A stretch of 64,000 nt of DNA, taken from NCBI RefSeq assembly GCF_021228795.1, contig NZ_CP089309.1, positions 4,957,501-5,021,500 of the forward strand, written 5' to 3'. Under the pieces are notes generated by a model that worked only from the letters and a program-made list of their open reading frames with translations, made no database searches and was not told where the DNA came from. The position numbers and the translations under genes were made by a program. The stretch comes from Thiocapsa bogorovii. GTDB taxonomy: Bacteria; Pseudomonadota; Gammaproteobacteria; Chromatiales; Chromatiaceae. This document shows positions 10,816 through 50,346 of the stretch, piece by piece (the first letter of the stretch is position 1; every line of letters begins with the position of its first letter).

Positions 10816-11946
10816 TCACCGGGATCCCGGGGCATTTGCGGATGATGTTCGCGCCGGAGGACTGCTTGTGACCGCGTCTTCCGGCGCATTCGGCTCGTCG
10901 CCCATGCAGGGAAAGACCACCAAATGGTCGGCTTCAAGCCGGATCCCGATCTCATCCCCGACGGCGTGTTGGTGATGGCTCGGGACCAAACAAAGCACCT
11001 CGGTTCCGCTCTCCAACCTCAGCTGATACAGGTATTCGGCACCGCGAAATGCGCGTTCCACGACGACCGCTCGCCTCGGGCTGGTCTCGTCATACAGCAT
11101 GTCGTCGGGTCGGATCAACACCTCCGCCGTCGATCCGGGCGGCAGACCATGCGGTTTGCTTCCGGCGACGCGTCCGAGCTCCGTCTTCACGCGTGTTTCG
11201 TCCACCACGATCGCCGGGAGCAAGACGCCTTGGCCGATGAAACCGGCAACGAAACGATCGGCCGGCTCGTGGTAGAGGCCGAATCCGGTTCCCCATTGAC
11301 GGATGCTGCCATCGGCGATCACGCCGATCTGATCGGCCATGGCGAAGGCCTCGAGCTGATCGTGGGTGACGAGGATCGCGGTCACGCCCTCGCGTCTGAG
11401 CAAATCCCTGACCTCGCGTGCGAGCTGCTCGCGCAGCTCGGCGTCCATGCTCGAGAAGGGCTCGTCGAGCAACAGGATCTCGGGGCGCGGTGCCATGGCG
11501 CGGGCGAGGGCGACCCGTTGCTGCATGCCTCCGGAGAGTTCGTGCGGATACAGGGATGCCGCGTGACCTAGGTCGACCAGGTCAAGGAGCTCTGCGACAC
11601 GATGCTCACGCTCGGCACGCTTGAGTCCGCTCAGGCCAAACGCGACGTTGCGTGCGACCGTGAGGTGCGGGAACAACGCGAAGTCTTGAAAGACCATGCC
11701 GACCCGACGTTGCTCGGGGGGGATGGTGTGGCCGGGAACCGAGACGCGGTGTCCGTGCAACAGGACCTCGCCGCGGCTGACCGGCTCGAAACCGGCGATG
11801 GCGCGCAGCAAGGTCGTCTTGCCGCAGCCGCTCGGCCCGAGCAGACACCCGATGATGCCATGCTCGAGGACGAAGGACACATCGCGCACGATCGTGGTGT
11901 CGCCATAAGCGACGCTGACGTCTCTGACCTCAAGCTGTGTCGGCAT
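10816..11946 (-). CDS. fbpC: Ferric iron ABC transporter ATP-binding protein
   Basis: The 376-residue ATPase powers periplasmic iron import. It has Walker A GPSGCGKT (37-44), Q-loop VFQDFALFPHL, the ABC signature LSGGMQQR, Walker B ILLLDEPFSSMD and the switch His in LVTHDQLEA. A C-terminal regulatory domain of the OB/TOBE type follows (about 240-350). Its start overlaps the permease gene end by 17 bases. Gene order fbpA-fbpB-fbpC on the minus strand is the classic FbpABC/FutABC arrangement. The ATPase alone could also fit polyamine or sulfate importers; the neighbours decide for iron. Confidence 0.9.
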   Translation of the reverse strand: MPTQLEVRDVSVAYGDTTIVRDVSFVLEHGIIGCLLGPSGCGKTTLLRAIAGFEPVSRGEVLLHGHRVSVPGHTIPPEQRRVGMVFQDFALFPHLTVARNVAFGLSGLKRAEREHRVAELLDLVDLGHAASLYPHELSGGMQQRVALARAMAPRPEILLLDEPFSSMDAELREQLAREVRDLLRREGVTAILVTHDQLEAFAMADQIGVIADGSIRQWGTGFGLYHEPADRFVAGFIGQGVLLPAIVVDETRVKTELGRVAGSKPHGLPPGSTAEVLIRPDDMLYDETSPRRAVVVERAFRGAEYLYQLRLESGTEVLCLVPSHHQHAVGDEIGIRLEADHLVVFPCMGDEPNAPEDAVTSSPPARTSSANAPGSR

Positions 11947-37348: not shown

Positions 37349-37652
37349 GCCAACGACCCCTCTCCCCGGCGGGTCGACGGAGCATCGAGGACGAAAATGA
37401 AAACGTCAGTGAGTAGTCACCAAAGTGTAATACGCGCCCTTGTCCCTGGCCAGCTCATGGCCTTTCGAAATTTTTTGTGTGGGCTTTCAGGAGACTATCG
37501 GGAGTCTATCGGTGTCGGTGGGGGTAGGCGCGGCCGAGCGATTCAGCGTAGACTCCGGCGTGCGATGCTTTTCGATCCGTCTGCTCGGGGCCGATCGCAA
37601 TCCCCGGCTGCGTGCTTCCACACCATCAGCCCAGTCGTCTTGAGGCTTACGA
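37349..37652. other. Divergent intergenic region upstream of the MBX-like operon
   Basis: These 304 bases must hold the promoter of the 14-gene plus-strand cluster and that of the minus-strand LTA-synthase-type gene. The notable structure is a tandem 11-bp direct repeat GGAGACTATCG / GGAGTCTATCG at 37490-37511 (10 of 11 identical), a possible regulator site. An A/T-rich patch (GAAATTTTTTGTG) precedes it. No convincing -35/-10 pair was found. Confidence 0.4.
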
Positions 37653-38177
37653 ATGGATGACACCCCCGTCGATCCTCGGCCGTCGATCGGTCACTACCTC
37701 TTCTCGGTTCTCGTGCTCGCCCTGCTTTGGCTTTTGCTGGCAGGCAGCCTGGCGACGGCAGAGCTGATCGCGGCACTGGCTGTCGGCATCCTCGTGACCT
37801 CCATCGCCGGACCGCGCCTGGCCGTCTTGAGCGGGGTTCGGCTTTCGCCTTTGGCGCCTTGGCACCTTCTGCGCTATCTGCTGACCTTCCTCGTTGCGCT
37901 GGTGGCGGCCAATGTGGACATGGCGCGCCGCGTACTGTCGCCGTCGTTGCCGCTGCGTCCCGCTTTAATCGAGGTCCGGACCGCACTGCGCTCTTCGCTC
38001 GGGCGGATGTTGTTGGCCAACAGCATCACGCTGACGCCAGGCACGCTCGCCGTCGATATCCGCGGGGACCGGATCTTGGTCCACTGGGTGGATTGCCCGC
38101 CCGGAACCGATCTCGACCGGGCGACCGCCGCCATCTCGGATGCCTTCGAGCGCCATATCCGCGGGTTCCTCAAATGA
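37653..38177 (+). CDS. mrpE: MrpE/MnhE-type cation antiporter subunit (MbxA-like)
   Basis: The first gene of the MBX-like cluster encodes a 174-residue protein of the MnhE family: two N-terminal TM helices (FSVLVLALLWLLLAG; ELIAALAVGILVTSIAG), a third at about 68-85, and the cytoplasmic tail with SSLGRMLLANSITLTPGTLA and ILVHWVDCP, both family hallmarks. In Mrp antiporters and MBH/MBX complexes it helps form the sodium-translocating module. It overlaps the next gene by 4 bases (ATGA). Confidence 0.92.
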   Translation: MDDTPVDPRPSIGHYLFSVLVLALLWLLLAGSLATAELIAALAVGILVTSIAGPRLAVLSGVRLSPLAPWHLLRYLLTFLVALVAANVDMARRVLSPSLPLRPALIEVRTALRSSLGRMLLANSITLTPGTLAVDIRGDRILVHWVDCPPGTDLDRATAAISDAFERHIRGFLK

Positions 38178-38440
38178 CGCTCAATACCTTGGAGATCTTA
38201 GCCGCCGTAATGCTCGGAGCGGCGCTCCTGATTGCGTTGCTGCGCCTCGTCACGGGGCCGTCGGCACCGGATCGCGTGGTCGCGGCGGATACCTTGACGG
38301 TGATCACGACCATCGCGATCGTCGGCTTGGCGCTCCTGTTCGCAAATCCTCTCTATCTGGACGTGGCCCTCGTCTTCGGTGTCTTGGCCTTCGTCGGTGT
38401 GGTCGCGATCGCCCGGGCGATCGAGGGAGGGCGCTCGTGA
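38174..38440 (+). CDS. mrpF: MrpF/MnhF-type subunit (MbxB-like)
   Basis: This 88-residue, three-TM protein matches MnhF: LLRLVTGPSAPDRVVAADTL in the first loop is the family signature, followed by TM helices VITTIAIVGLALLFANPLYLD and VALVFGVLAFVGVVAIAR. It is part of the cation-translocating unit of the complex. ATG 38174 overlaps the MrpE stop, and its own stop overlaps the next start (GTGA). Confidence 0.92.
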   Translation: MTLNTLEILAAVMLGAALLIALLRLVTGPSAPDRVVAADTLTVITTIAIVGLALLFANPLYLDVALVFGVLAFVGVVAIARAIEGGRS

Positions 38441-38787
38441 GGCTGCTCGCCGATGTCTTTCTGTTGATCGGGGCCGCCTTCGCCTGTCTCGGCGCCTTGG
38501 GCTTGGTGCGGATGCCAGATGTCTACACGCGGATCCAGGCCGGCACCAAGGCGGTGACCCTGGGGGCTCTCGCCTTCCTGATCGGTGCCGCGTTGCTCTT
38601 CCCGCAGTGGTGGGCCAAGTTGCTCTGCATTCTCGGGTTTATTCTCTTTACGAGTCCTGTGTCGTCCTCGACGATCGCGCGTGCAATCCATCTGTCGGGG
38701 ATCACGCCGTGGCGGGCGCCCACGCCCGAGGCGTCCGGGCAGGCCCCGATGTCGCCACAGGCCGCCAAGCCCGCGGAGGGTCGCTGA
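38437..38787 (+). CDS. mrpG: MrpG/MnhG-type subunit (MbxC-like)
   Basis: The 116-residue protein starts at GTG 38437 and has the MnhG features: a first TM helix, then GLVRMPDVYTRIQAGTKAVT, which is nearly invariant in the family, then two more TM helices and SPVSSSTIARAIHLSGI. The tail of about 20 residues is Pro-rich. It is translationally coupled on both sides within the cluster. Confidence 0.92.
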   Translation: MRLLADVFLLIGAAFACLGALGLVRMPDVYTRIQAGTKAVTLGALAFLIGAALLFPQWWAKLLCILGFILFTSPVSSSTIARAIHLSGITPWRAPTPEASGQAPMSPQAAKPAEGR

Positions 38788-39059
38788 TGACAACCTGGGT
38801 CGCCTTGGTGGTGGTCGTGCTGATGTTGGTCTCGGCGCTTGCCGTCTTGCTCTTGCGAAGCTTCGTCGCGGCCGTGGCGGCGACGGCGGTCGTCGGGTTG
38901 GGTTTGACGGTGCTTTTCGTGCTGATGCGGGCCCCGGATGTCGCCATGACCGAAGCGGCGGTCGGGGCGGGGCTGAGCGGGGTCATCCTTGCGCTTGCGC
39001 TGCGTCGCCTGGGCCTCTGGCGAGTCGAGGATAACGGCCAAGGGGGCGGGGATGCGTAA
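38787..39059 (+). CDS. DUF4040 subunit (MbxD-like, MrpA C-terminal segment)
   Basis: The 90-residue, three-TM protein corresponds to a piece of the MrpA C-terminus that is a separate small gene in MBH/MBX complexes (MbhD/MbxD, DUF4040). The core is VVGLGLTVLFVLMRAPDVAMTEAAVG; the segment APDVAMTEAAVG is the hallmark. It helps build the proposed sodium path together with MrpE, F, G and B. ATG 38787 overlaps the MrpG stop; its end overlaps the start of the next gene by 8 bases. Confidence 0.88.
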   Translation: MTTWVALVVVVLMLVSALAVLLLRSFVAAVAATAVVGLGLTVLFVLMRAPDVAMTEAAVGAGLSGVILALALRRLGLWRVEDNGQGGGDA

Positions 39060-39741
39060 CCTGGCCTCGCTTCTCTTCGCCGGCGGTTTAGCCTTTCTGC
39101 TCCTGACGCTTCTGTCTCAGCTCGCCTTCGGGACGCCGCCGATGCGGGTCGGTGCGGAGATCCTGGCGGTGGCGCCCGGCGAGGTCGGTGCCGCGAACCT
39201 AGTGACCGCGATACTGTTGGGCTACCGCGGGTTCGATACGCTCGGCGAGCTGGCGATCCTCTTTGCTGCGGCTACGGCTGCGGGGGTCGTGCTCGGGCGC
39301 CGCCGTGACGACGCGCGTCGCGATCCGCCCGGTGGAGAAGTCTTGCGCACCGGCGCCGATCTGCTGTTCCCCTTGTTGGTCGTCGTCGGATTCTATGTGA
39401 TTGCCCACGGGCATCTCACGCCGGGCGGCGGTTTTCAGGGCGGTGTCATCCTGGCTGCGGCCTTCTTCGTCGCTCTCCTCGCGCAACCGGCGCGCCATCT
39501 CAGTCATGGCCTGATCCTTTGGATCGAAGGTCTGGCCGGGGCCGCCTTCATCCTCATCGGGATCTGGGCCTTGGTCGCGGACGGTGACTTTCTTGCGCCC
39601 TTGCTCGGTCCAGGGCGGATGGGCGACCTGGTGTCCGCCGGGACCCTGCCGCTGCTGTCTCTGGCCATCGGGCTGAAGGTCGGCGCGGAGCTGGCCGGGA
39701 TCATGGCACACATCGCCGACGCGGAGGCGCCCGACACATGA
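39052..39741 (+). CDS. mrpB: MrpB/MnhB-type subunit with MbxE-like N-terminal part
   Basis: At 229 residues this is longer than a plain MnhB (about 140). The first ~80 residues, with NLVTAILLGYRGFDTLGELA, correspond to the MbhE/MbxE piece of MrpA; the rest is MnhB (LLFPLLVVVGFYVIAHGHL, then PGGGFQGGVILAAAFFVAL). It thus merges MbxE and MbxF in one chain. ATG 39052 is preceded by a G-rich AAGGGGG site. It overlaps the MrpC gene by 4 bases. Confidence 0.88.
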   Translation: MRNLASLLFAGGLAFLLLTLLSQLAFGTPPMRVGAEILAVAPGEVGAANLVTAILLGYRGFDTLGELAILFAAATAAGVVLGRRRDDARRDPPGGEVLRTGADLLFPLLVVVGFYVIAHGHLTPGGGFQGGVILAAAFFVALLAQPARHLSHGLILWIEGLAGAAFILIGIWALVADGDFLAPLLGPGRMGDLVSAGTLPLLSLAIGLKVGAELAGIMAHIADAEAPDT

Positions 39742-40262
39742 TGTCCCTGACCTTGGAGGGCGTGGTCTTGATCGGCGCGCTCGGGCTGATCGTGATCGGC
39801 GCTCTGGGCATGGCCATCTCGAATCACCTCTTTCGGATGCTGTTGGCACTGGTTATTGCCGAGTCCGGCGCGAATCTGCTGATCGTGCTTTCGGGTTACC
39901 GGGTCGGCGCGAGCGCGCCCATCCTTGGCTTCAGTGATCCGACGACGCCCATGGTCGACCCCATTCCGCAGGTCTTGGTACTGACCGCGATCGTCATCGG
40001 CGTCGGCGTGCAGGCGTTGGCGGTCGCTCTTCTGCTCAAGGTGTATCGTGTCTACGGCACGCTGAACGTGCGCGAGCTGCGCGACCGCATGGACGCCGAT
40101 GTCGCGACCGCCGCCGGCGTCGAGGCCGATGCGAGTCAGGATGCGCCCGCGGGCGAGCGTCCCTTGCCGCCGGTTCCGGCGCGTGCCTCGGGAGGGGCGG
40201 GGGGATTCGGAAGACGCGGTCCGGTCACTTTCCCGCCCCACTCCGACGAGCGGCGCCCATGA
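39738..40262 (+). CDS. mrpC: MrpC/NuoK-type subunit (MbxG-like)
   Basis: The 174-residue protein has three TM helices of the MrpC/NuoK family: IGALGLIVIGALGMAISNHLF, LLALVIAESGANLLIVLSGYR with the conserved TM2 Glu, and VLVLTAIVIGVGVQALAVALL. The extra C-terminal tail of about 60 residues is hydrophilic and low in complexity, longer than normal. It sits between MrpB and MrpD as in Mrp operons, with 4-base overlaps on both sides. Confidence 0.9.
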   Translation: MMSLTLEGVVLIGALGLIVIGALGMAISNHLFRMLLALVIAESGANLLIVLSGYRVGASAPILGFSDPTTPMVDPIPQVLVLTAIVIGVGVQALAVALLLKVYRVYGTLNVRELRDRMDADVATAAGVEADASQDAPAGERPLPPVPARASGGAGGFGRRGPVTFPPHSDERRP

Positions 40263-41815
40263 TCCCGGATATCGCACTCCCGAATCTCTTTGTCGCGCAG
40301 CCCGGGCAACTGGTCCTGCCGGTAGTCCTGCCGCTCTTGGCCGCCTTTCTGATGCAGCCGCTGGCGCGCGTGTCTACCGCTCTGGCGCGTGGACTGGGCC
40401 CGTTGGTCCTCATCCTCTCCGCTTGGATCACGGCGCAGCTTTGGATCCAGCTCGGTGATGCGCCCTTTACGCTGGCGATCGGCGGCTTCGCCCCGCCGCT
40501 CGGGATCCTCTTTTATGCCGACGGGATCGCATTGCTCTTCGCGCTCGCCGTGCCTGTCTTTGCGCTCCTGTTTTGGCCTGGATCGGGATCAGGGGGAGAC
40601 GCGGTCGCCGGATCGGGCCCTGATTCCAATCAGGCCGACCGCGATCAGGCCGCGCGTCGCGATGCACTGGTGCTCCTGCTGGTGGCGGCGACCACCGGAC
40701 TTGCCCTGTCCGGCGATCTCTTCAACCTCTATGTCTTCTACGAGCTTGCCGCCGTGGCCTCCTTCGGTCTGGTGGCGCTGTCCGGCACCGGCCGTGCGCA
40801 GGTCGCGACCTTCCGTTACCTGATGATCAGTGCCTTCGGGTCTGTGCTTGCACTCGTCGGCATTGCGATTCTCTACATGCAGACGGGCACCTTGAACCTC
40901 GGCCAAATCGCGCAGCTGGCGCCCGAGACCCTGAACAATCCGATCGGTTCGGCGGCCTTCGCGCTCATGCTGATCGGCTTCGGCGTCAAGGCGGAGCTCT
41001 TTCCGGTCAACACGTGGGTGCCTGAGGTCTACGCCGGCGCGCCGGCGCGCGTGTCCGCCTTGCTGGCCGGCTTGGTGTCGAAGCTCGCGGTGCTGGTGAT
41101 CGTTCGTCTGCTGGTGTTGATCTTCCCGCAGCCCGAGGCCGCTCAGATGCTGCTCGTGCTGGGTGTGCTCGGGGTCCTGACCGGCGAGTTTGCCGCTTGG
41201 CGCGCCAAGGACTTCCCGCGGATGCTGGCCTTCTCATCGATCGGCCAGCTCGGCATCGTCTTTGTTGCCTTCTCGATCGGCGGCGAGATCGGACTCTTGG
41301 CCGGGCTTGCCGTCGCGCTGCACCACCTGATCGTCAAATCCGCCTTGTTCGGGCTGGCGGTGCGCTGGAATGGCTCGTTGGAGGCACTTTCCGGTGCCGC
41401 GCGCACCTCGCCGCTGGGGGCGGCCCTGTTTGTCTTGTTTGCCCTGTCGCTGGTCGGGGTTCCGCCGCTGCCTGGGTTCTGGGCCAAGCTGACGGTCCTG
41501 ATCGGTCTGGCCGAGCGAGGAACGCCGCTCGACATGACCGCGCTGATGGTGATCCTGCTGGTGACCGCAGTGGAAGCGAGCTATCTCTTCCGGGTCGCGA
41601 TCCGGCTCTATCAAGACAATCCGGATCCGGTCGCCCCGCATGCCCGCCGGGATCTCGGGGTGGCCGCGCTGCTCGGAGCCGTTCTGGTCGCCGCGACCCT
41701 GGGTCTTCGGCCGGTTGCCGATGTCCTCGGTGCGGGCGCTGCGCAACTCGGCGACCGTGCGGGCTATATCGAGACCGTTTTCCCGTCTCACGTCGCCGGA
41801 AAGGATCGACCATGA
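40259..41815 (+). CDS. mrpD: MrpD-type antiporter subunit (MbxH-like, NuoN/NuoL family)
   Basis: This 518-residue antiporter-like subunit has about 14 TM helices. Key features are the TM5 region FNLYVFYELAAVASFGLVAL with its conserved Glu, the TM7-8 region LIGFGVKAELFPVNTWVPE with its Lys, VYAGAPARVSALLAGLVSKL, and HHLIVKSALF in TM12. A hydrophilic insert of about 20 residues (GSGGDAVAGSGPDSNQADRD) lies near residue 115. It moves protons or sodium ions. It overlaps its neighbours by 4 bases each. Confidence 0.92.
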   Translation: MIPDIALPNLFVAQPGQLVLPVVLPLLAAFLMQPLARVSTALARGLGPLVLILSAWITAQLWIQLGDAPFTLAIGGFAPPLGILFYADGIALLFALAVPVFALLFWPGSGSGGDAVAGSGPDSNQADRDQAARRDALVLLLVAATTGLALSGDLFNLYVFYELAAVASFGLVALSGTGRAQVATFRYLMISAFGSVLALVGIAILYMQTGTLNLGQIAQLAPETLNNPIGSAAFALMLIGFGVKAELFPVNTWVPEVYAGAPARVSALLAGLVSKLAVLVIVRLLVLIFPQPEAAQMLLVLGVLGVLTGEFAAWRAKDFPRMLAFSSIGQLGIVFVAFSIGGEIGLLAGLAVALHHLIVKSALFGLAVRWNGSLEALSGAARTSPLGAALFVLFALSLVGVPPLPGFWAKLTVLIGLAERGTPLDMTALMVILLVTAVEASYLFRVAIRLYQDNPDPVAPHARRDLGVAALLGAVLVAATLGLRPVADVLGAGAAQLGDRAGYIETVFPSHVAGKDRP

Positions 41816-43680
41816 CGTCACTCGATCACCTCTTGCTGGTCTCGGCGCTGACACTCGCTCTGATGCTGCTGTTCGGACGGACGCGGATCGCCGGACGGCT
41901 TGCGGTCGCCCTCTACGGTGTCCAATTCCTGCTGCTCATGCAGACCGGGGCACTCCTCGGCGAGCCGGTCGCCTCCTCGCTGACGGTCTCGGTCCTGGAT
42001 CTTCCGATGCATTGGCGCTACGACGCGCTCTCGTGGTTCTTCGCCATGATCACCATCGGGGCAGGATTCTTTTGTGCCTGGTATGCCGCCGGGGTGTGGC
42101 AGGAGCGCTATCGCGAACAGGGACACAGTCCGCGACTCTTCCATGTCGCGCTCGCGGCGAATGTCTTGACCATGTTGATCCTTCTGGGCAGCGGAGACCT
42201 TCTCTCGCTCTTTATTGGCTGGGAGTTGGTGAGCTGGGCGAGCTTTCTGCTGATGGCCGTCGGCGGCGGTCCGGCCGGACGGGCTGCCTTGCGCTATCTG
42301 GTCTACGCCTTCTCCGGAGGGATGGCGATCCTGGCCGGTCTGATGCTGATCTATACCCAGACCGGCTCTTTGGAGTACACGCGCGTTCTGACCCTATTCG
42401 GCGAGCTGTCCGACGCCCGGGTTTGGACACTGCTTCTGCTGATCGGCGGCGGCTTTGCGGTCAAGATGGGGCTGTTGCCTTTTCATCTCTGGCAGGCCGC
42501 AGCCTATGCCGAGACGCCCGGTCCGGGATCGAGCTTTCTCGGGGCCATCTCGGCGCGCATGGGTCTCTATGCCCTCATCCTGCTCCTCGTCGCCATGGTC
42601 GGCATCGGGCGATTGACGGCGATGGAAGTCCCTTTCACCTTTCTGAGCGCGCGCGACCTGATCGCCTGGATCGCCGCTCTGACGGTGATCATTCCGACCT
42701 ATATCGCACTGCAGCAGCACGACGCCCGTTATCTACTGGCCTGGCACGGCATCGGACAGGGCGGCTACATGCTGCTGGGTCTGATGGTCGGCAATGCCGT
42801 CGGCTCCGCGGGCGGCCTGTTTCATGTCTTCACCTACGGCATCACCCAGGCGGCCTTGCTGATGGCGGTCTTCGCGGTGGTTTACCGCACGGGCACAGCG
42901 GACCTCAATAAGCTGGGCGGCCTCGTCGCACGCATGCCGCTGACCTTTCTGGTGCTCTTGTTCGGCATCATCAGCCTGGCCGGGCTGCCGCCGATGGCCG
43001 GCTTCGTCTCCAAGTGGATGGTCTATCGCTCGCTCGTCGCGGAGGGCATGCCGCTCCTGTTCGTCGCCGCCGTGGTCGGAACGCTCGGCACCATCCTGTC
43101 GGTCTATAAGCTCATCCACAACATCTTCCTCGGCCAACTGCGCATCGAGCATGAGCAGGTGCGCGAGGCGCCGCTGAGCATGCTACTGCCGATGCTGGGT
43201 CTCTCGACTCTGATCTTTCTGGTCGGGCTGATGCCCGGACCCGCGCTAAGCTGGGTCGCGGCGGTTCAGACCTCGCTCGGGCTGCCGCCGGTGCCCTATA
43301 CCTTGGGCGGGATCGAAGATCCGCGCGGCGGTCTCGACATGCTCTGGCTGGTCGGCATCCTCATGGCCGGCTTCGGTGTCGGTGCGTTGATCTTCTTTGG
43401 ACTCGGCGGCAAGTCCAAGCGGGTCCATCAGCTTGACAACTATGCCGGTGGCCACTTCCTGACCGCGGATGTGCGCTACCAATACAGCGACAACTTCTAT
43501 GCCGGACTTATGCACTTGATCGGTCCCTGGTATCGGGGAGCGTTCCTCTGGCTGGAGAAGGCGTTGACGGCAACGGTGGCCTTCATCTCGGCGGTCACGA
43601 ACGGGCTTTATCGCTACGCACAGCCGGCGCTTTTCGTGTTGGCGACTGCGGTCGCACTGCTCGCCTTGACGACCGCATGA
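41812..43680 (+). CDS. Second antiporter-like subunit (MbxH'-like, NuoL/HyfB family)
   Basis: From ATG 41812 the protein has 622 residues and is again a proton/sodium antiporter-like subunit, with SLFIGWELVSWASFLLMAVG, AVKMGLLPFHLWQAAAYAE and LISLAGLPPMAGF-type motifs (SLAGLPPMAGFVSKWMVYRS). The C-terminal part has additional helices and a loop (LDNYAGGHFLTADVRYQYSD). A second MrpD-like subunit is what separates MBX/MBS complexes from MBH. The longer open frame to 41197 is a shadow over mrpD. Confidence 0.9.
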   Translation: MTSLDHLLLVSALTLALMLLFGRTRIAGRLAVALYGVQFLLLMQTGALLGEPVASSLTVSVLDLPMHWRYDALSWFFAMITIGAGFFCAWYAAGVWQERYREQGHSPRLFHVALAANVLTMLILLGSGDLLSLFIGWELVSWASFLLMAVGGGPAGRAALRYLVYAFSGGMAILAGLMLIYTQTGSLEYTRVLTLFGELSDARVWTLLLLIGGGFAVKMGLLPFHLWQAAAYAETPGPGSSFLGAISARMGLYALILLLVAMVGIGRLTAMEVPFTFLSARDLIAWIAALTVIIPTYIALQQHDARYLLAWHGIGQGGYMLLGLMVGNAVGSAGGLFHVFTYGITQAALLMAVFAVVYRTGTADLNKLGGLVARMPLTFLVLLFGIISLAGLPPMAGFVSKWMVYRSLVAEGMPLLFVAAVVGTLGTILSVYKLIHNIFLGQLRIEHEQVREAPLSMLLPMLGLSTLIFLVGLMPGPALSWVAAVQTSLGLPPVPYTLGGIEDPRGGLDMLWLVGILMAGFGVGALIFFGLGGKSKRVHQLDNYAGGHFLTADVRYQYSDNFYAGLMHLIGPWYRGAFLWLEKALTATVAFISAVTNGLYRYAQPALFVLATAVALLALTTA

Positions 43681-43717
43681 CCGCCGCTTTGAACCGGGTT
43701 TCTCGAAGGTGGTAAAG

Positions 43718-44611
43718 GTGATCGGATTGATGATCGAGCTGATTCTCATGCCCTTGGCGGCCTTCGTCATCGGGCTTGCCATGGTGCTGATGATGCGTAG
43801 GATCGGCGCGCGTTTGCAGCGGCGCGTCGGGCCGCCGCTGCTTCAGCCACTGTGGGACATCATCAAACTGCACGGCAAGGAGACCCAGACCTCGCACGGC
43901 CTGATCCACGAGTTCGGCATCGTGATGGCGATCGGCGGATTCGTGGCCGCGGTGACGCTCATGCCCTTGCCGGGCATGAACGGCCTGGCGGAGCAGGGCG
44001 GTTTGATCGCGCTCGTCTATATGATGATGATCCCGTCGCTCGGCCTCGCGCTCGGAGTCGGCCAATGCGCCAACCCGAACGGGTCCATCGGCATCTCGCG
44101 CGCATTGACCGCGATGCTGGCTTACGACATCCCGATGGTGATCGTCATCTTCGGGGTCGCCTTCTTCTACGGCTCGACGAGTCTCGTACAGATTATCGAC
44201 GCTCAGCAGGCCGGCGGCTTCGCGACTTGGGGCATCGCCGAGATGCCGCTGCTCGCCCTGGCCGGACTCTTCGCGATGCAGGCCATGCTGGGCAAGCAGC
44301 CCTTCGAGATCTATGTGGCCCCGGCCGAGATCGCGACCGGGCCGATGGTCGAAATGGGCGGCAAGTTCCTCGGCGGTCTCTTCATCATGCAGTGCTTCCA
44401 ACTCTACGCGGCGGGCGCGCTCTATACCCTTCTGTTCCTTGGGGGAGGGGAGAATTGGCTGACATTCCTGATCAAAGTCTTTGCCGTGGTCGCCATCCCG
44501 ATGAGCATCGCTTTTCTCTTCCCGCGGTATCGGACCGAGGATGTGGTGCGGCTGGTTTGGAAATGGCCGGCAATGATCGGCTTACTGGGCATTGCCTTTC
44601 TGATGTATTAA
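43718..44611 (+). CDS. NuoH-like membrane subunit (MbxM-like)
   Basis: The 297-residue multi-TM protein is the NuoH/MbhM/MbxM-type anchor of the peripheral redox arm. Signatures are RRIGARLQRRVGPPLLQPLW, then DIIKLHGKE, and GKQPFEIYVAPAEIATGP with its conserved acidic residues. GTG 43718 is chosen because GAAGG lies 9 bases upstream; GTG 43709 is the alternative. The stop codon merges with the left end of repeat copy C. It links the antiporter half and the redox half of the operon. Confidence 0.88.
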   Translation: MIGLMIELILMPLAAFVIGLAMVLMMRRIGARLQRRVGPPLLQPLWDIIKLHGKETQTSHGLIHEFGIVMAIGGFVAAVTLMPLPGMNGLAEQGGLIALVYMMMIPSLGLALGVGQCANPNGSIGISRALTAMLAYDIPMVIVIFGVAFFYGSTSLVQIIDAQQAGGFATWGIAEMPLLALAGLFAMQAMLGKQPFEIYVAPAEIATGPMVEMGGKFLGGLFIMQCFQLYAAGALYTLLFLGGGENWLTFLIKVFAVVAIPMSIAFLFPRYRTEDVVRLVWKWPAMIGLLGIAFLMY

Positions 44612-44692
44612 ACCGCGTCCGATGCGACATGCACCGTTTTTCAGTGGGTTGATTGTCGATTGCATCGATGCGCATTGGCTCTCACGCGGTTT
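44610..44692. repeat. 83-bp intergenic element with AACCGCGT inverted ends (copy C)
   Basis: The segment begins AAACCGCGT and ends ACGCGGTTT, a perfect 9-bp inverted pair. It fills most of the 169-base gap between the NuoH-like and NuoB-like genes, in an otherwise tightly packed operon. It includes the last bases of the NuoH-like stop codon. Confidence 0.5.
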
Positions 44693-44780
44693 GAGATGAT
44701 GAAGACAGGCTTTGTATGCTTGGCGTGTCGTTGGGCGACGATCGTTCGACCGAGACTCGATTGCCGATGGGGTATCCGTT

Positions 44781-45515
44781 ATGACTGAGCTGATCAAGAC
44801 ACCGCGCGCGGGCGAGACCCTGCCGGTCACGGCCGGGAAGCGAACGAATCCGCTTGCGAATGTCTTCGACGAGTTGGTGCGCTTCGCGCAGTCTCGCTCG
44901 CTCTTCATGCTGCACTATTGCACCGGCTGCGGTGCAATCGAGCTGCCCCCGGCCATGACCTCGCGGTTCGACATGGAGCGGCTCGGAATTCAGCCGATGG
45001 TCTCGCCGCGACAAGCGGACATCCTGCTCGTGACCGGCTATGTCTCGGTCAAGACGCTCAAGCGCGTCATTCTGACCTACGAGCAGATGGGCTCGCCGAA
45101 GTATGTGATCGGCATCTGCTCCTGCACGGTCAATGGCGGCATGTATTGGCAAAGTTATGCGACGGCGAAGAAGCTCAACGACTATATGCCGGTGGATATC
45201 TACATCGCGGGCTGTATGCCGCGTCCCGAGGCCGTGATCGCCGGGCTTCGCGAGTTGATGGAGAACATTCGGCAAGGCAAGGCCGACTCCTGGAAAGACT
45301 ACTACAGGCACTACGATCACTACCTCGGTCACCAGCAGCGGTTGTTCGGCGAGACCTGGCAGACCCCCACCGACGTGATCTCGGAGGCCAGACATTACGG
45401 TCTTTTTGGTCCCGATACGCTGGGTACGCATACCGCGCTCTTGGAGCAACACCAGAAGCCGCTGGAAGCGCTTGAGATGAAGGTGGATATTCCGGAGTTG
45501 ACGGCGCGGCGCTGA
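44781..45515 (+). CDS. NuoB/[NiFe]-small-subunit-like protein (MbxJ-like)
   Basis: The 244-residue protein binds the [4Fe-4S] cluster nearest the active site. Its cysteines are C47 and C50 (HYCTGCGAIE), C113/C115 (GICSCTVNGGMY) and C145 (IAGCMPRPE). The CxGC pair is like that of group 4 hydrogenase small subunits rather than the adjacent CC of complex I NuoB. It has a C-terminal extension of about 80 residues. ATG 44781 follows repeat copy C. Confidence 0.88.
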   Translation: MTELIKTPRAGETLPVTAGKRTNPLANVFDELVRFAQSRSLFMLHYCTGCGAIELPPAMTSRFDMERLGIQPMVSPRQADILLVTGYVSVKTLKRVILTYEQMGSPKYVIGICSCTVNGGMYWQSYATAKKLNDYMPVDIYIAGCMPRPEAVIAGLRELMENIRQGKADSWKDYYRHYDHYLGHQQRLFGETWQTPTDVISEARHYGLFGPDTLGTHTALLEQHQKPLEALEMKVDIPELTARR

Positions 45516-45625
45516 CGCCTACCGCGATCCCGGTTTGACATTGCGGCGTTGATGGTCGGATTCGCTGTGCTCGCTACGTCTTCTCTAAGCCCCGGCCAAA
45601 TAGATGTTATCGATTGGAATCCCGA

Positions 45626-46204
45626 ATGACTAAAGACCTCTCGACCTGGCTGGATACGTTGCTCAGCGAGCTGCAAGGCATCGAGGTGCGGCGCAAAAGC
45701 AGTCGGCGGATTCGTGTCGATGTGCAACCGGATGCCCTGCCGGCCTTGTTGGAGCTGCTCCGTGGGCGCGCCTCCTATGTCCATCTCTCCGCGATCAGCT
45801 GCGTGGACTGGATCGAGGAGAACGAATTCGAGTTGGTTTACCATGTATGGTCGTACGAGATCGGATCCTTGGTCTCGGCGCATACCCGGATTGCACGCAA
45901 TCCCGGCGTCTATATCTCCGTCTACGATATCTACACCCCCGCAGCCTTCTTCGAGCGCGATATCCACGAGATGTTCGGTGTCTTCTTCGAGGGCAGTCCC
46001 GACATGAGTAAATTCATCCTGACCGAATGGGATGGACCGCCGCCGATGCGTAAGGACTTCGACTCGGAGGCGTGGGTCAACGCGCACTTCGATTTTCAAG
46101 ACTACCAACCGGATTGGTTGACGGAGATCGAGGCCAAGGGCGGCGGCGTCGCCGTGCGTCCCGACGAGCAGCGTTTCAGCCGGAGGGACGTCGATGCGTC
46201 CTGA
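45626..46204 (+). CDS. NuoC-like subunit (MbxK-like)
   Basis: This 192-residue subunit of the 30-kDa complex I family shows ERDIHEMFGVFFEGSPDMSK followed by the RKDF segment (PMRKDFDSEAW), the family signature. In complex I-like enzymes it joins the NuoD- and NuoB-like subunits. ATG 45626 is preferred over an upstream TTG at 45614. Its 3' end overlaps the NuoD-like gene by 11 bases. Confidence 0.88.
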   Translation: MTKDLSTWLDTLLSELQGIEVRRKSSRRIRVDVQPDALPALLELLRGRASYVHLSAISCVDWIEENEFELVYHVWSYEIGSLVSAHTRIARNPGVYISVYDIYTPAAFFERDIHEMFGVFFEGSPDMSKFILTEWDGPPPMRKDFDSEAWVNAHFDFQDYQPDWLTEIEAKGGGVAVRPDEQRFSRRDVDAS

Positions 46205-47336
46205 GAACTACGAGGCTCAACGCCAGCCGCCGAGCCACGAATACGAGCTCAATATCGGCCCCAATCATCCGGGCATCGAGGGCAACTATGCCTTCAAGTT
46301 GAGACTCCACGGCGACAGGGTACTGGAAGGCAAGGCCGATGCCGGGTATCTGCACCGCGGATTCGAGAAGCTCATGGAGGGGCGGCTCTGGATCCAGAAC
46401 CTCGCCATCACACCGCGGATCTGTGTTCCGGACCCGGTCCCGATGGAGGTCAGCTACTGTCTGGCCGTCGAGGAGCTCTGCGGTCTCGAGATCCCCGAGC
46501 GTGCTCAATGGTTGCGGGTGCTCCAGCTCGAGCTCTCGCGCATCGCCGCGCATCTGTTCACCTTCGGCGGACATGCCGCCACCACCGGCATGTACAGCCC
46601 CATGTTCTGGGGGATCGCCGATCGTGACCTGGTCCTGGATCTCTTCGAGGAGCTCACCGGCGGACGCGTCTACCATATCTACAACATCCCGGGCGGCGTG
46701 CGGCGCGACGCCCCGGACGGTTTTCTCGATCGCGTCGGGAGTACGTTGGATTATCTCGACTCGCGTCTGCCGGACTACGACAATCTGCTGTTCACCAACC
46801 AGGTCTTCGTGCACCGGGCGAAAGGGGTGGGCACGATGAGCCGCGAGCAGGCGCTCGAATGGGGCGTGACCGGCCCGAACCTGCGTGCGACCGGACTCGA
46901 GTTCGACGTGCGTCGCGACGATCCCTACCTCGTCTACGACGATTTGGATTTCGACATCCCGACCGAGGAGGCCGGAGACGCCTGGGCTCGCACCTTGGTT
47001 CGGCGCAAGGAGCTGGTGCAGAGCATCCGGATCGCGCGTCAGGTCATCGCCGCTTTGCGGTCCATCGACGGCCCCATCCGCTGTCCGATCCCCAATCCAT
47101 TGGCCTGGAACGTCCCGGCCGGCTCGGTCTATACCCGTGTGGAGTCATCCAAGGGGGAGTTGGCCTGGTACGTGGTGTCGAACGGTAGCGAGCGACCCTA
47201 TCGCACCCACGTGCGCGGTCCCTCGCAGATGCATGCGGTGCAGGTGCTCGAAAAGCTCTCCGTCGGTTGCCGACTCGAAGACGTTGCCCAGACCATGTTT
47301 TCGCTCGACGCTTGCCCCCCGGAGGTGGATCGCTGA
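46194..47336 (+). CDS. NuoD/[NiFe]-large-subunit-like protein (MbxL-like), degenerate NiFe site
   Basis: The 380-residue protein has the fold of complex I NuoD and group 4 hydrogenase large subunits (NIGPNHPGIEGNYAFKL; GYLHRGFEKLMEGR; THVRGPSQMHAVQVLE). The [NiFe] ligand motifs are altered: the N-terminal RxCGxC position is R75-I-C77-V-P-D80 and the C-terminal DPCxxC position is D372-A-C374-P-P-E377. One Cys of each pair is kept and the second is Asp or Glu. A normal NiFe centre is therefore unlikely. MBX/MBS sulfane reductases of archaea are the closest functional comparison by gene order. Confidence 0.88.
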   Translation: MRPENYEAQRQPPSHEYELNIGPNHPGIEGNYAFKLRLHGDRVLEGKADAGYLHRGFEKLMEGRLWIQNLAITPRICVPDPVPMEVSYCLAVEELCGLEIPERAQWLRVLQLELSRIAAHLFTFGGHAATTGMYSPMFWGIADRDLVLDLFEELTGGRVYHIYNIPGGVRRDAPDGFLDRVGSTLDYLDSRLPDYDNLLFTNQVFVHRAKGVGTMSREQALEWGVTGPNLRATGLEFDVRRDDPYLVYDDLDFDIPTEEAGDAWARTLVRRKELVQSIRIARQVIAALRSIDGPIRCPIPNPLAWNVPAGSVYTRVESSKGELAWYVVSNGSERPYRTHVRGPSQMHAVQVLEKLSVGCRLEDVAQTMFSLDACPPEVDR

Positions 47337-49180
47337 TGCGCGACATCGACTACAAGGATAGGGGCGGGATACTGAACCCGCTGAAGAGTCTCTCCTTTTT
47401 CGGTCGCAGGTCCGTGACCGTGCCGCTGGAGCCGCGCGCCGCGTCGGCCAACTATCGTGGCTTCCATGTCAACGACTGGGAGGCCTGCATCGGCTGCAGT
47501 ACCTGTCAGAAGGTCTGCGACAACGCGGCCATCACCATGGTCAGCATCCCCGATCTGCCGCAGGATCCCGCGAAGGGGATCCGCAACCTGCGTCCGGCCA
47601 TCGACTACGGACGCTGCTGCTGGTGCGCACTCTGCGTGGATCTTTGTCCGACCGGCTCCATCTCGCTGTCCCGCGAGTATGTCCATACCTGTCTCGACAG
47701 CGAGCTGGACAGCTATTTCGTGCTGCCCGATTCCAATGGCATCCACGGCACACCGTATCCGAAAGGCTGGGCCAAGTCGGAGGATGCCGACCTGGTCGCG
47801 CTCGAACGCGCGCGGATGGAGGAGCTCCCGCCCGCCGAACGAATCGGCAACTTCAATGAGATCGTCGCCGGCTACGACGCGAACCAGGCGATCATCGAGG
47901 CCTCGCGCTGCGTGCAGTGCGGCATGTGTTTCGACGCCTGCCCGACCCACATGAACGCGCCCGAATACATCCGCGCCATCTGGAAGGGCGACCTCGAGCA
48001 GGCGGTCCGCGAGATCTATCGGACCAACCCGTTCGCCCACACCTGCGGCCGCGTCTGCACGCATCGCTGCGAGGATGCGTGCTCGGTCGGGCACCGCGGC
48101 ACGCCGATCGCCATCCGTTGGCTCAAACGGTATGCCATGGACGCCGTGGATCACGAGCGGGTGAAGACGATCGCCGCCGAGGGCAAGGCGCGGTTCCTCT
48201 CCGGCAAGCGCGTCGCCGTGGTGGGGGGTGGTCCGGCGGGACTCACCGCTGCCTTCGACCTGATCAAGGAGGGCCATGAGGTCACCGTCTTCGAGGCCCG
48301 ACCCAAGGCCGGCGGCATGGTGCGCTACGGGATCCCGGACTATCGCCTCCCGCAGGATCGCATCGACCGCGATGTCGACGTCATCGCCTCGCTGGGCGTG
48401 AAGATCCGGTACGGCACGCAGGTCGGAACAGACATCACGATGGCCGAGCTCGAGCAGGACTATGACGCCGTCATCCTGACCATCGGTCTCTGGATGGGCC
48501 GCTCGACCCGCATTCCGGGCTCCGATCACCCGCGGGTCAAGCGCGCGGTGACCCTGCTGCGCGACGTGGCCGATCAGGTCAAGGTCTCGGTGCCGACCTC
48601 CGCGATCGTGATCGGCGGCGGAAACGTGGCGATGGACGTCGCCCGGACGATTGCACGTCTCCAGAAACAGACCTACGGCCAAGTCAAGGTCACGGTGACC
48701 GCCTTGGAGGACCTGGAGCACTTCCTCGCCGATCCCGAAGAGATCAAAGAGGCCAGAGAGGAGGGCGTCGAGATCCTGCCCGCCCGTGGCCCGCAGGAGA
48801 TCCTCTTCAAGCCGCGTAAGTATGAAGTCGACAAGGTCCATGGCTTGCGGACTTGGCGCGTGCTCTCCATCTTCGACGCGCAGGGGCGGTTTGCGCCGAG
48901 ATATGATGAAGCCGACGAGCAGATCCACGAGGGCGAGATGGTCGTCGAGGCCATCGGTCAGGCCGCCGAGGTCGAATTACTCGGCGAGGAGCTGACGGAG
49001 CGCCTCGACTGGAACCGCGGCCGATTGAAGATCGACGATCAGGGCCGGACCAATCTGCCCTGGCTCTGGGCCGCCGGAGACATGGTGCGGGGTCCGGATG
49101 TCGTCTCCGCGGTGGCCGACGGACACCGGGTGGCCTCGAGCATCACTAGCGTTTTATCGATTCGGGAGGACGCGGCATGA
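47336..49180 (+). CDS. NuoI-like ferredoxin fused to GltD/NfnL-type flavoprotein
   Basis: The 614-residue protein first has a two-cluster NuoI/MbxN-like domain (C51-C54-C57-C61 and C94-C97-C100-C104). A GltD-type N-terminal domain follows with CVQCGMCFDACP (192-202) and CGRVCTHRCEDAC (237-249). Next come the FAD motif VAVVGGGPAGL (from 294), RYGIPDYRLP and the NAD(P) motif VIGGGNVAMDVAR. GltD/NfnL domains pass electrons between NAD(P)H, FAD and Fe-S clusters. The fusion would wire NAD(P)H to the NuoB/NuoD-like core. ATG 47336 overlaps the NuoD-like stop, and its stop overlaps the rubrerythrin start (ATGA). Confidence 0.9.
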   Translation: MRDIDYKDRGGILNPLKSLSFFGRRSVTVPLEPRAASANYRGFHVNDWEACIGCSTCQKVCDNAAITMVSIPDLPQDPAKGIRNLRPAIDYGRCCWCALCVDLCPTGSISLSREYVHTCLDSELDSYFVLPDSNGIHGTPYPKGWAKSEDADLVALERARMEELPPAERIGNFNEIVAGYDANQAIIEASRCVQCGMCFDACPTHMNAPEYIRAIWKGDLEQAVREIYRTNPFAHTCGRVCTHRCEDACSVGHRGTPIAIRWLKRYAMDAVDHERVKTIAAEGKARFLSGKRVAVVGGGPAGLTAAFDLIKEGHEVTVFEARPKAGGMVRYGIPDYRLPQDRIDRDVDVIASLGVKIRYGTQVGTDITMAELEQDYDAVILTIGLWMGRSTRIPGSDHPRVKRAVTLLRDVADQVKVSVPTSAIVIGGGNVAMDVARTIARLQKQTYGQVKVTVTALEDLEHFLADPEEIKEAREEGVEILPARGPQEILFKPRKYEVDKVHGLRTWRVLSIFDAQGRFAPRYDEADEQIHEGEMVVEAIGQAAEVELLGEELTERLDWNRGRLKIDDQGRTNLPWLWAAGDMVRGPDVVSAVADGHRVASSITSVLSIREDAA

Positions 49181-49680
49181 TCGAAGGAGCCGTGAGCAGC
49201 TACGAGAAGATCAAGTCCAAGACCTCGCTGCGCGAGATCCTGGAGGTCGCCTGCAGCTTCGAGGCGAGCGCGCGTGATTTTTACACCGACCTGATCCCCA
49301 AGGTCGGCAAGAACATACGTTGGCTGGTCGAAGAATTAGCTGCCGAGGAGCAGCAGCATTTCGATCTATTGAACGGACTGGCGAGCCGAGAAGACATCGC
49401 CGAGCAGATCAAGGCAGAGGTCCGAATCCCGGCGACCGACACCCGATTCTCCGATGCTGTTCAGTTGCCGGACTTGGGTGCCAAGCCGGACGATCAGGCG
49501 ATTCTGCAGTATGCGATGGGTCGCGAGCAGATTGCCATGGAACATTATCACTCGCTGGCGGAGGGCACCGAACCCGGACCGATTCATGATCTCTTCAGCT
49601 ATCTCGCCGACGAGGAGACCAAGCACAAGGCCGAGCTGGAAAAGGTCTACTACGAGGTCGTCCACTCGGGCGGGGTCTGA
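49177..49680 (+). CDS. Rubrerythrin-like ferritin-fold diiron protein
   Basis: The 167-residue four-helix protein keeps a rubrerythrin/ferritin-like pattern of metal ligands: CSFEASARDFY, LAAEEQQHFDLL, ALQYAMGREQIAMEHYHSL-type segment (ILQYAMGREQIAMEHYHSL) and LADEETKHKAELEKVYYE. It lacks the C-terminal rubredoxin CxxC domain, so it should take electrons from a partner. ATG 49177 overlaps the flavoprotein stop, showing it is the last gene of the MBX-like operon. Peroxide reduction protecting the oxygen-sensitive clusters is a reasonable inference. Confidence 0.87.
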   Translation: MIEGAVSSYEKIKSKTSLREILEVACSFEASARDFYTDLIPKVGKNIRWLVEELAAEEQQHFDLLNGLASREDIAEQIKAEVRIPATDTRFSDAVQLPDLGAKPDDQAILQYAMGREQIAMEHYHSLAEGTEPGPIHDLFSYLADEETKHKAELEKVYYEVVHSGGV

Positions 49681-49860
49681 TACGACGCCGCATTGAAGCC
49701 TGTCCGGAGCGCGCAGCGCGAACCGCGGCATCTTAGGTGACTCGAGCCGAGTCGCGCGCCATCACCCCGACCGACCGCTTGTTGAGGCTTTCTCGAGCCG
49801 TTCCGAAGGAAACCCGTCACACGGGGCGGCGCCGGTTCTGCTGCTGCGCGCGGATCGGAA

Positions 49861-50346
49861 TCAGCGTCCGGAAATCCGTTTCGCATTGGCGAGCAGGTCG
49901 TCGATCTCGCGTTCAGCTTCGACCCAGTCCTCTGCTTCGTGTCCGGGCGCGAAACGACGTTTCTCTGCACGGTAGTAGGCCGCCTCATGGATCATGTGCA
50001 TCCGCTCCTCGTCCGACACATTGGCGAGTAACTTCAGGCTGATCGATTTGCTTTCGGGTGCGTTCCGGGCGACTCCGGATTTTGCGGGTGCCTTCTTGGC
50101 GGGTGTCTTTTTCGCGACGGGGGTCGCCGTGGCGGTCCGTGTCGCTGACGGCGCTGCCTTCTTCTTCGTGGCTGTCTTTGCGGGGGGCGCGGGGGCCTTG
50201 CCCGGTGCCGGTTTCGCCGCCGGTTTGACGGCAGCGGCTTTTGTGGGAGCCTTCTTCGCCACGGTCTTCTTGATGACTGGGTTCTTGCTGTCTACGGCCG
50301 CCTTCGGGGCCGTCTTTTTGGTTACGATCGTTTTGTCGTCGGCCAT
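49861..50346 (-). CDS. Histone-H1-like Lys/Ala/Pro-rich protein with DUF2934 domain
   Basis: The 161-residue product has an N-terminal region of about 115 residues built of KKTxxKKAPxK-like sequence (TKKTAPKAA, VAKKAPTKAAA, KKTPAKKAPAK), like the tail of histone H1 or AlgP/HctB-type DNA-binding proteins. The C-terminus (RMHMIHEAAYYRAEKRRF, then HEAEDWVEAEREID) is a DUF2934 domain. ATG 50346 has GAGG about 9 bases upstream. Non-specific DNA binding by the basic tail is likely; the partner of DUF2934 is unknown. The longer frame to 50604 overlaps the ABC permease gene. Confidence 0.8.
   Translation of the reverse strand: MADDKTIVTKKTAPKAAVDSKNPVIKKTVAKKAPTKAAAVKPAAKPAPGKAPAPPAKTATKKKAAPSATRTATATPVAKKTPAKKAPAKSGVARNAPESKSISLKLLANVSDEERMHMIHEAAYYRAEKRRFAPGHEAEDWVEAEREIDDLLANAKRISGR

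Follow-up and report, generated by a model that had tools for sequence, protein, structure and literature searches.

What is made by a gene cluster that joins the parts of an Mrp-type antiporter to those of complex I, and where would electrons enter it? The question is raised by fourteen genes of Thiocapsa bogorovii, which lie on contig NZ_CP089309.1 within a stretch of 64,000 nucleotides (positions 4,957,501 to 5,021,500 of the forward strand), called the window here; cluster coordinates are counted from its first letter. The original prediction, made from the letters alone, had described an MBX/MBS-like redox pump with a rubrerythrin gene at its end. The reading which we favour, at somewhat better than even confidence, is an MBX/MBS-type, Mrp-derived ion-translocating oxidoreductase with an NAD(H) dehydrogenase module as its electron-entry subunit.

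Core and electron-entry subunit

The Mrp module, two antiporter-like subunits and the NuoH/B/C/D/I core were found in one cluster and in the archaeal order originally given. When compared with chains of solved structures, NuoD scored 383.4 bits against MBS (6u8y_L), 262.8 against Nqo4 of complex I and 125.9 against MBH, while NuoH scored 187.4 bits against 6u8y_M, 66.5 against MBH and 62.8 against the best complex I-type chain, and NuoB scored 218.8 bits against 6u8y_J and 115.4 against the next chain. The best solved match of the first antiporter was 6u8y_H (186.9 bits) and that of the second 6u8y_X (184.8 bits); with chain X taken as MbsH', the second H subunit of the original prediction stands. 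The best solved relative of the NuoI part of the last redox protein was MBS subunit N (6u8y). A NuoD tree of 91 rows placed the window in a 71-row clade with the solved MBS (Shimodaira-Hasegawa-like approximate likelihood ratio, SH-aLRT, 97), with separate groups for complex I (3 rows, 100), archaeal Fpo/Nuo (7 rows, 98) and the group 4 hydrogenases used as outgroup (7 rows, 100). Three archaeal MBX-labelled rows, their labels resting like those of all archaeal rows on cysteine motifs, fell just outside this clade, and the 74 rows were held together at 95. The tree was a quick search and carries a long-branch warning which includes the MBS row, whose position within the clade is unsure. Because NuoD sits in the clade that contains MBS, it branches neither within complex I nor within the group 4 hydrogenases, and tree, solved relatives and active-site residues agree with the original view of an MBX/MBS-like complex distinct from both complex I and a plain Mrp antiporter.

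In MBS, according to the published passages on its structure, the proximal cluster has three cysteine ligands, and MbsJ C25 and MbsL C85/C385 are dispensable for activity (PMC7684303). Cys50, Cys115 and Cys145 of the window NuoB aligned without gaps to the three MbsJ ligands, and were kept in 66, 67 and 66 of 67 rows respectively, the misses being gapped rows. Cys47 corresponds to MbsJ Cys25, which is no ligand, the C25xxC28 region also aligning without gaps; Gly occupies this fourth position in 35 of the 67 rows and Cys in 31 (the window among the latter), as expected for a non-ligand. By sequence the proximal cluster of NuoB has the three-cysteine pattern of MBS, and its ligation may be of the same kind. 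NuoD Cys77 and Cys374, kept in 59 and 45 of 71 rows, are at the places of MbsL Cys85 and Cys385, and two of the four NiFe cysteines are lost. Glu29 and Val78 are found where Nqo4 of complex I has the quinone-binding His38 and Tyr87; position 78 is Val in all 71 rows and Tyr in none, and position 29 is His in a single row. Judged from these alignments, both the quinone residues of complex I and the NiFe residues are absent from NuoD.

Three other identities were considered and rejected. Membership of complex I was ruled out by the NuoD tree and by these residues, despite two NCBIfam complex I models being passed; the cut-offs of TIGR01957 and TIGR01962 were not reached, NuoH and NuoC reached no complex I cut-off, and no Pfam match to NuoE, NuoF or NuoG was found among the fourteen proteins. 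A group 4 [NiFe] hydrogenase (MBH, Ech, Hyf) was ruled out by a NuoD without the two CxxC motifs, which reads RICVP and DACPPEVDR with one Cys each, and a stand-alone Mrp antiporter by redox genes that start 28 bases past the last Mrp-type gene. By sequence comparison the core is placed with MBX/MBS, and not with complex I, Fpo or the group 4 hydrogenases.

The last redox gene had been described simply as NuoI-like, which missed a flavoprotein part: Pfam, NF010590 and the Protein Data Bank (PDB) matches agree on a fusion of NuoI to an NfnL/GltD-type flavoprotein, 614 residues long. Residues 1 to about 120 are NuoI with two [4Fe-4S] motifs, residues 170–274 are a Fer4_20 domain with two further [4Fe-4S] motifs, and residues 292–591 are a pyridine nucleotide-disulphide oxidoreductase domain, with the flavin adenine dinucleotide (FAD) and NAD(P) folds spanning approximately residues 290–608. 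NF010590 (PRK13984) matched residues 12–608 with 800 bits, below its cut-off of 946; the protein has the architecture of this family but is of another subfamily. The best solved relatives of the C-terminal part were NfnL-like and GltD-like enzymes. An AlphaFold2 model built from a 41-row alignment had a mean predicted local distance difference test (pLDDT) score of 86.7 and a predicted template modelling (pTM) score of 0.85, and its best Foldseek match was the alpha subunit of Pyrococcus furiosus NfnI (5jca_L, 3.1e-41). Seventeen cysteines were invariant in 70 of 70 rows, sixteen of them within the four [4Fe-4S] motifs. The fused flavoprotein gives the complex a pyridine-nucleotide site of its own, so that the earlier guess of a link to NAD(P)H becomes a prediction from anatomy.

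The acidic or basic character of the coenzyme site is a general guide in Rossmann folds, an acidic residue favouring NADH and arginine NADPH. Tyr-Arg-Arg was found at this site in all five NfnL-type chains compared (9bov, 9n5u, 5vj7, 8oh5, 4ylf), where the window reads Thr-Ala-Leu-Glu-Asp, and in the model Glu458 lies just past strand 452–455 of the NAD(P) fold. Across 70 rows the site was acidic in 52, the window included, and Tyr-Arg-Arg (YRR) in 18; the acidic form was present in all 12 Thermotogota loci. The coenzyme is therefore probably NADH rather than NADPH, as predicted by this rule. In a tree of the fused protein (47 rows) the acidic and YRR types were split by one branch (SH-aLRT 99), a result against repeated switching of coenzyme type, while on the NuoD tree the label needs eight changes (acid) or five (YRR), a pattern which we read as discordant gene histories.

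Proposed function and alternatives

The most likely function suggested by these features is that of an NADH/polysulfide oxidoreductase coupled to Na+/H+ translocation. Electrons would travel between NADH and the three-cysteine [4Fe-4S] cluster of NuoB by way of the FAD in the NfnL/GltD-type domain and the four [4Fe-4S] clusters that the fused subunit carries. At the NuoB cluster a sulfane, either polysulfide or some similar disulfide, would be reduced or formed. Coupling would run via NuoH to the two antiporter-like subunits and the Mrp-type Na+/H+ module. For sulfane as the substrate we put the chances at about even; the assembly of the subunits, Na+ as the coupling ion and the direction of the reaction are what we infer.

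Potentials are approximately −320 mV for NAD+/NADH and −260 to −270 mV for polysulfide/sulfide. With so small a gap, sulfur reduction by NADH could pay for the transport of fewer than one ion per pair of electrons at a normal gradient, and ion-gradient-driven NAD+ reduction by sulfide would be a serious option in a sulfide-oxidising phototroph, no less plausible there than sulfur reduction. The window genome, a single contig of 5.65 Mb, holds two matches to the photosynthetic reaction-centre family and dsrA, as well as three rnfC genes over the family cut-off (at 2.15, 2.54 and 5.42 Mb) and a separate NuoD near 544 kb which groups with complex I in the NuoD tree. This content is consistent with a purple sulfur bacterium equipped with both complex I and Rnf. 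A speculative extension, to which we give a low probability, is a kind of 'second complex I', in which a core of the MBS kind gained its NADH input by the NfnL/GltD fusion instead of NuoEFG and runs in reverse in sulfide-oxidising phototrophs or chemolithotrophs. A light- or respiration-made ion gradient would then push electrons from sulfide or polysulfide to NAD+, bypassing quinone, and if true, this would cost the cell less than running complex I in reverse.

Among the rival explanations the strongest, though in our view unlikely, is an ion-gradient-coupled NAD(P)H:ferredoxin oxidoreductase, in which ferredoxin and NAD(P)H would both react at the fused subunit and the core would link their reaction to ion flow. 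Ferredoxin is given as the donor of archaeal MBS (PMC7684303) and assumed as the donor in Thermotoga maritima (PMC9431562), and a bacterial Mbx has been named 'ferredoxin:NADP oxidoreductase' (PMC4596419), in the passages of these papers which treat the complexes; in Mesoaciditoga, NfnS-like (named by eye) and NfnL-like genes directly follow the operon. Such an enzyme would leave the NuoB–NuoD chain without a substrate, yet its MBS-type cluster pattern is conserved, and the three rnfC genes are already present in the window genome. The fused module itself argues for a donor other than ferredoxin.

A flavin-based bifurcating or confurcating enzyme, in which the NfnL-type FAD would send the electrons of NADH partly to a low-potential acceptor and partly to the MBX core, appears improbable. 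The ten best matches that Foldseek gave for the fused subunit include the bifurcating enzymes NfnI, NfnABC and StnABC, but the same search returned this fold in glutamate synthase and dihydropyrimidine dehydrogenase, which are not known to bifurcate, and no NfnS-type second flavin subunit was found by Pfam among the fourteen genes. We rate slightly lower still an NADH:quinone oxidoreductase of the complex I kind in which another NADH module has taken over. Quinones would be expected in a phototroph with reaction-centre genes, and NuoD and NuoB pass two complex I family models, but the residues at the Nqo4 His38 and Tyr87 places are almost uniformly replaced in relatives, and NuoD lies outside both complex I and Fpo in the tree. 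A mere Na+/H+ antiporter with decayed Nuo-like genes can be dismissed as very improbable, since in spite of the eight Mrp-type genes ahead of the redox genes, and of a Solemya symbiont MrpEFGBBCDD set which resembles those eight and is filed as an antiporter in the passage describing it (PMC4287430), the redox genes are open, their cluster cysteines are invariant and many phyla share the 13-gene order.

Several observations weigh against an NADH-fed MBX/MBS-type sulfane enzyme. NuoD passes PRK06075 (434.9, cut-off 360) and NuoB passes PRK06411 (186.6, cut-off 116). The window NuoB keeps Cys47, so the sequence permits a fourth ligand, and ferredoxin could dock at the NuoI clusters. The acidic/arginine rule is a general one whose extension to MBX fused subunits is a prediction, and Arg directly follows the Glu in 11 of the 12 Thermotogota loci. 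With a complex I-type NuoD and three rnfC genes, the host does not lack NADH-linked ion pumping. With three intergenic gaps, co-transcription of the cluster is putative, and a promoter-like match, of a kind occurring at chance frequency, lies in the 169-base gap. Finally, we know of no purified enzyme of the fused form.

Layout, distribution and companion genes

The cluster (Table 1) consists of fourteen intact open reading frames on the + strand from 37653 to 49680, each with a Pfam match over cut-off (14/14), and both the reading frames and Pfam bear out the order from MrpE to NuoI and rubrerythrin first proposed. Most genes were said to overlap by 4–11 bases; overlaps of 1–11 bases were found at 10 of 13 junctions, and gaps of 28 (second antiporter–NuoH), 169 (NuoH–NuoB) and 110 bases (NuoB–NuoC) separate the others. 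The NuoH–NuoB gap is poorly conserved, with a mean column identity of 61% in four sequences. Promoter-like sites were at chance level (3 against 2.1 expected), with one in the 169-base gap, terminator-like sites were above it (19 against 7.9 expected) in a GC-rich region, and no Rfam match was found over 37300–50000.

Table 1. Positions within the window of the genes of the cluster and of the coenzyme-site codons.
Feature	Position	Strand	Evidence
MnhE / MbxA-like Mrp subunit, 174 aa	37653-38177	+	Pfam MNHE 1.3e-35
MrpF / MbxB-like, 88 aa	38174-38440	+	Pfam MrpF_PhaF 7.9e-16
MrpG / MbxC-like, 116 aa (GTG start chosen by us)	38437-38787	+	Pfam PhaG_MnhG_YufB 1.3e-24
MbhD (DUF4040) / MbxD-like, 90 aa	38787-39059	+	Pfam MbhD 1.6e-18
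MbhE+MnhB two-part subunit, MbsE-like, 229 aa	39052-39741	+	Pfam MbhE 6.5e-7, MnhB 2.7e-22
MrpC / NuoK-like, MbxG, 174 aa	39738-40262	+	Pfam Oxidored_q2 1.2e-20
First antiporter-like subunit (MrpD, MbxH), 518 aa	40259-41815	+	Proton_antipo_M 4e-55
Second antiporter-like subunit (MbxH'), 622 aa	41812-43680	+	best solved match 6u8y_X
NuoH / MbxM-like membrane anchor, 300 aa	43709-44611	+	6u8y_M 187.4 bits
NuoB / MbxJ-like, 244 aa	44781-45515	+	6u8y_J 218.8 bits
NuoC / MbxK-like, 192 aa	45626-46204	+	Pfam Complex1_30kDa 2.5e-26
NuoD / MbxL-like, 380 aa	46194-47336	+	6u8y_L 383.4 bits; tree
NuoI (MbxN) fused to NfnL/GltD-type flavoprotein, 614 aa	47336-49180	+	Pfam, NF010590, PDB, model
Leu457-Glu458-Asp459 codons, NAD(P) fold of fused subunit	48704-48712	+	alignments, model
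Rubrerythrin-like (ferritin fold), 167 aa	49177-49680	+	Pfam Rubrerythrin 7.5e-14

Charged residues of the membrane subunits are largely kept. Glu56 of the MbhD-like protein is Glu in 51 of 51 aligned rows and MrpC Glu42 in 19 of 19; MrpD Glu162, Lys360 and Lys410 are present and kept in 56, 55 and 57 of 60 rows, with Lys244 present but variable in relatives (Glu in 34, Lys in 22 of 60); and MbxH' Glu138, Lys218 and Lys401 are kept in 60, 58 and 52 of 60 rows, the last being Arg in the other eight. The MrpB gene was indeed found to be composed of two parts, as its MbxE-like N-terminus had suggested. This seems to be the norm of the family if the subunit is equated with MbsE, which in the solved MBS, as the relevant passage describes it, spans both membrane modules with transmembrane helices 1–2 and 3–6 (PMC7684303).

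The cluster had been presented as a form peculiar to a gammaproteobacterium, and this did not hold, as the GTDB genome scan and the Thermotogota genomes place it across many phyla. The scan was a sample in which 80 loci were kept among the matches listed, approximately one quarter of them plain GltD-type genes without adjoining MBX genes. Between these listed matches and the Thermotogota genomes, the fused form was seen in Thermotogota, Spirochaetota, Bacteroidota, Cloacimonadota, Halanaerobium and Proteobacteria, and cluster-bearing loci include Thiodiazotropha, Sedimenticola, a Lamellibrachia symbiont, Tropicimonas, Halochromatium roseum, Halanaerobium, Rectinema, Mesoaciditoga, Bacteroidales, Cloacimonadota, Chlorobiota and Acidobacteria. 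The fused subunit was over the NF010590 cut-off in 27 of 41 Thermotogota genomes and in 1 of 14 control genomes; the positive control is likely T. maritima, which was among the fourteen. A full-length fusion was present in 16 of 56 related genomes (the window's own included) and split or partial in two more, and in 5 of 11 genomes of the genus; when six genomes were drawn from the phylum, only the window's own had it. In two further genomes (G005, G028) the MBX cluster has an unfused NuoI, approximately 130–150 residues long, and the E gene shifted to the end. This arrangement, with MnhE after an unfused NuoI as at L041 and L042 of the same genus and family, is a third MBX type in these bacteria.

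For gene order, loci gathered for a NuoI or NuoI-GltD relative in the GTDB sample and in the related genomes were pooled. Among the matches listed and the relatives, 73 loci have NuoD beside NuoI, and in 68 of these the genes found stand in collinear order; the five exceptions comprise the two unfused loci and three cut ones (L036, L040, L091), with antiporter paralogues that were not told apart. Where more than 9 kb upstream was available among the listed loci, all 13 core genes were collinear in 48 of 52, so the order is not due to chance; the remaining four are the two unfused loci and two in which a single gene fell short of the threshold. One contig is counted twice in these figures (L037 and L078).

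A second proteobacterial MBX lineage was observed (L025, L026, L028–L030, L040, L056, L057, L060, L088, L110), with identities to the window of 46–49% for NuoD, 53–57% for the fused subunit and 55–68% for rubrerythrin where present. The lineages A (window type) and B (Halochromatium/Tropicimonas type) were named after the trees had been seen, and the trees were quick searches. A and B as one clade were rejected by the approximately unbiased (AU) test for NuoD (p 3e-66; in a second analysis p 1.3e-5), NuoB (4e-8) and NuoH (4e-50), and the fused-protein trees placed them together at 99.9–100. For the fused protein two alternatives to A+B were not rejected (AU 0.28 and 0.10), and an exchange of the electron-entry cassette between the cores of the two lineages is for this reason only suggested by these trees.

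The rubrerythrin-like protein has a complete di-iron ligand set, with Glu29, Glu57/58, His61, Glu117, Glu146/147 and His150 in 36 of 36 proteobacterial rows, and no rubredoxin domain among its Pfam matches. Using a profile from these 36 rows, a related gene was found directly 3' of the fused gene in 10 of the 12 Thermotogota loci, six spirochaete loci and one Cloacimonadota locus. In the spirochaete locus L059 the rubrerythrin-like part is joined to the C-terminus of the fused subunit, giving a protein of 749 residues (E 1e-9), and most ligands are lost; the profile gave no match at E 0.01 in the long C-termini of L061 and L098, nor in the Bacteroidota loci. In our reading the protein has long accompanied the module, perhaps in a structural role, and protection against peroxide or oxygen would have been added in oxygen-exposed hosts.

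Neighbouring genes differed at some loci. The rubrerythrin-like gene of Halochromatium roseum (L088, from position 105) lies approximately 10 kb upstream, before MnhE, and not after the fused gene. L054 (10007–11806) has a fused NuoI-GltD gene and a rubrerythrin-like fragment, with no MBX core gene within 10 kb upstream. The NfnS-like and NfnL-like genes of Mesoaciditoga are at 11833–14081 of L094, where the NfnL-like gene was also matched by the NF010590 search and the fused subunit is of the YRR type. In two Bacteroidota the fused gene is overlapped or adjoined at its end by a gene which by eye looks like one for a protein of the dihydroorotate dehydrogenase type (L069, 11757–12782; L070, 11803–12780).

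Relation to known systems

Bacterial MBX clusters are already in print. In the passages on T. maritima, MBX is a transferred twelve-gene operon (PMC2246101), and mbxA was up 4.36-fold after S0, with ferredoxin taken as the donor and a flavoprotein not mentioned (PMC9431562). Like the window it is a bacterial MBX cluster; the 12 Thermotogota loci share 46–50% identity with the window in NuoD and 45–48% in the fused subunit. The Riftia symbiont Endoriftia, also a gammaproteobacterial sulfur oxidiser, has a 'putative Mrp-Mbx complex' whose network neighbours are shared with the reductive tricarboxylic acid cycle, and which the passage names without anatomy and marks as of unknown function (PMC11636981); it is likened to the window by name, and a window-type cluster is present in an endosymbiont of the tubeworm Lamellibrachia (L048). 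The bacterial mbx cluster of Caldanaerobacter subterraneus yonseiensis, called a ferredoxin:NADP oxidoreductase, is likewise compared by name, from the passage that reports it (PMC4596419). No purified bacterial MBX-type enzyme is described in the published passages on bacterial MBX, and no description of a NuoI-GltD fusion in an MBX complex was found in the open-licence PMC literature, subscription papers being outside this scope; the flavoprotein fusion is thus the part not found described there.

The NfnL-type flavoproteins, Xfn and GltD (5JCA, 4YLF, 5VJ7, 6S6S) resemble the 460 C-terminal residues of the fused subunit, its FAD/NAD(P) folds and two of its [4Fe-4S] sites, and differ in that the window has an acidic residue for Tyr-Arg-Arg, a ferredoxin-like CxxCxxCxxxCP first motif and an N-terminal NuoI. 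The MBS of Pyrococcus furiosus (6U8Y) shares with the window the second H subunit, the three-cysteine proximal pattern, the cysteines at the C85/C385 places and the lack of the quinone His/Tyr. It differs in its MbsN of 208 residues (6u8y), part of a complex fed by ferredoxin, where the N subunit of the window is fused to an NfnL/GltD flavoprotein, and the window adds a rubrerythrin-like gene.

The fused form would widen the known ways in which NADH is coupled to ion pumping and would question a ferredoxin-only model of bacterial MBX. For purple sulfur bacteria and animal symbionts it suggests a link from sulfur compounds to NAD+ that bypasses quinone and can be tested, and the gammaproteobacterial versions, being mesophilic, may lend themselves to study more readily than the enzymes of hyperthermophiles. 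Complex I has NuoB, C, D, H, I and antiporter homologues in common with the window, in which an NADH input is also predicted, but the window is without NuoE/F/G and the quinone residues, and its NADH module is of the NfnL/GltD type. MBS and complex I are usually seen as one evolutionary line in which the NADH input arrived with NuoE/F/G. An MBS-kind pump that gained its pyridine-nucleotide input from a different flavoprotein family looks like a second, non-complex I way to wire NADH to such a pump.

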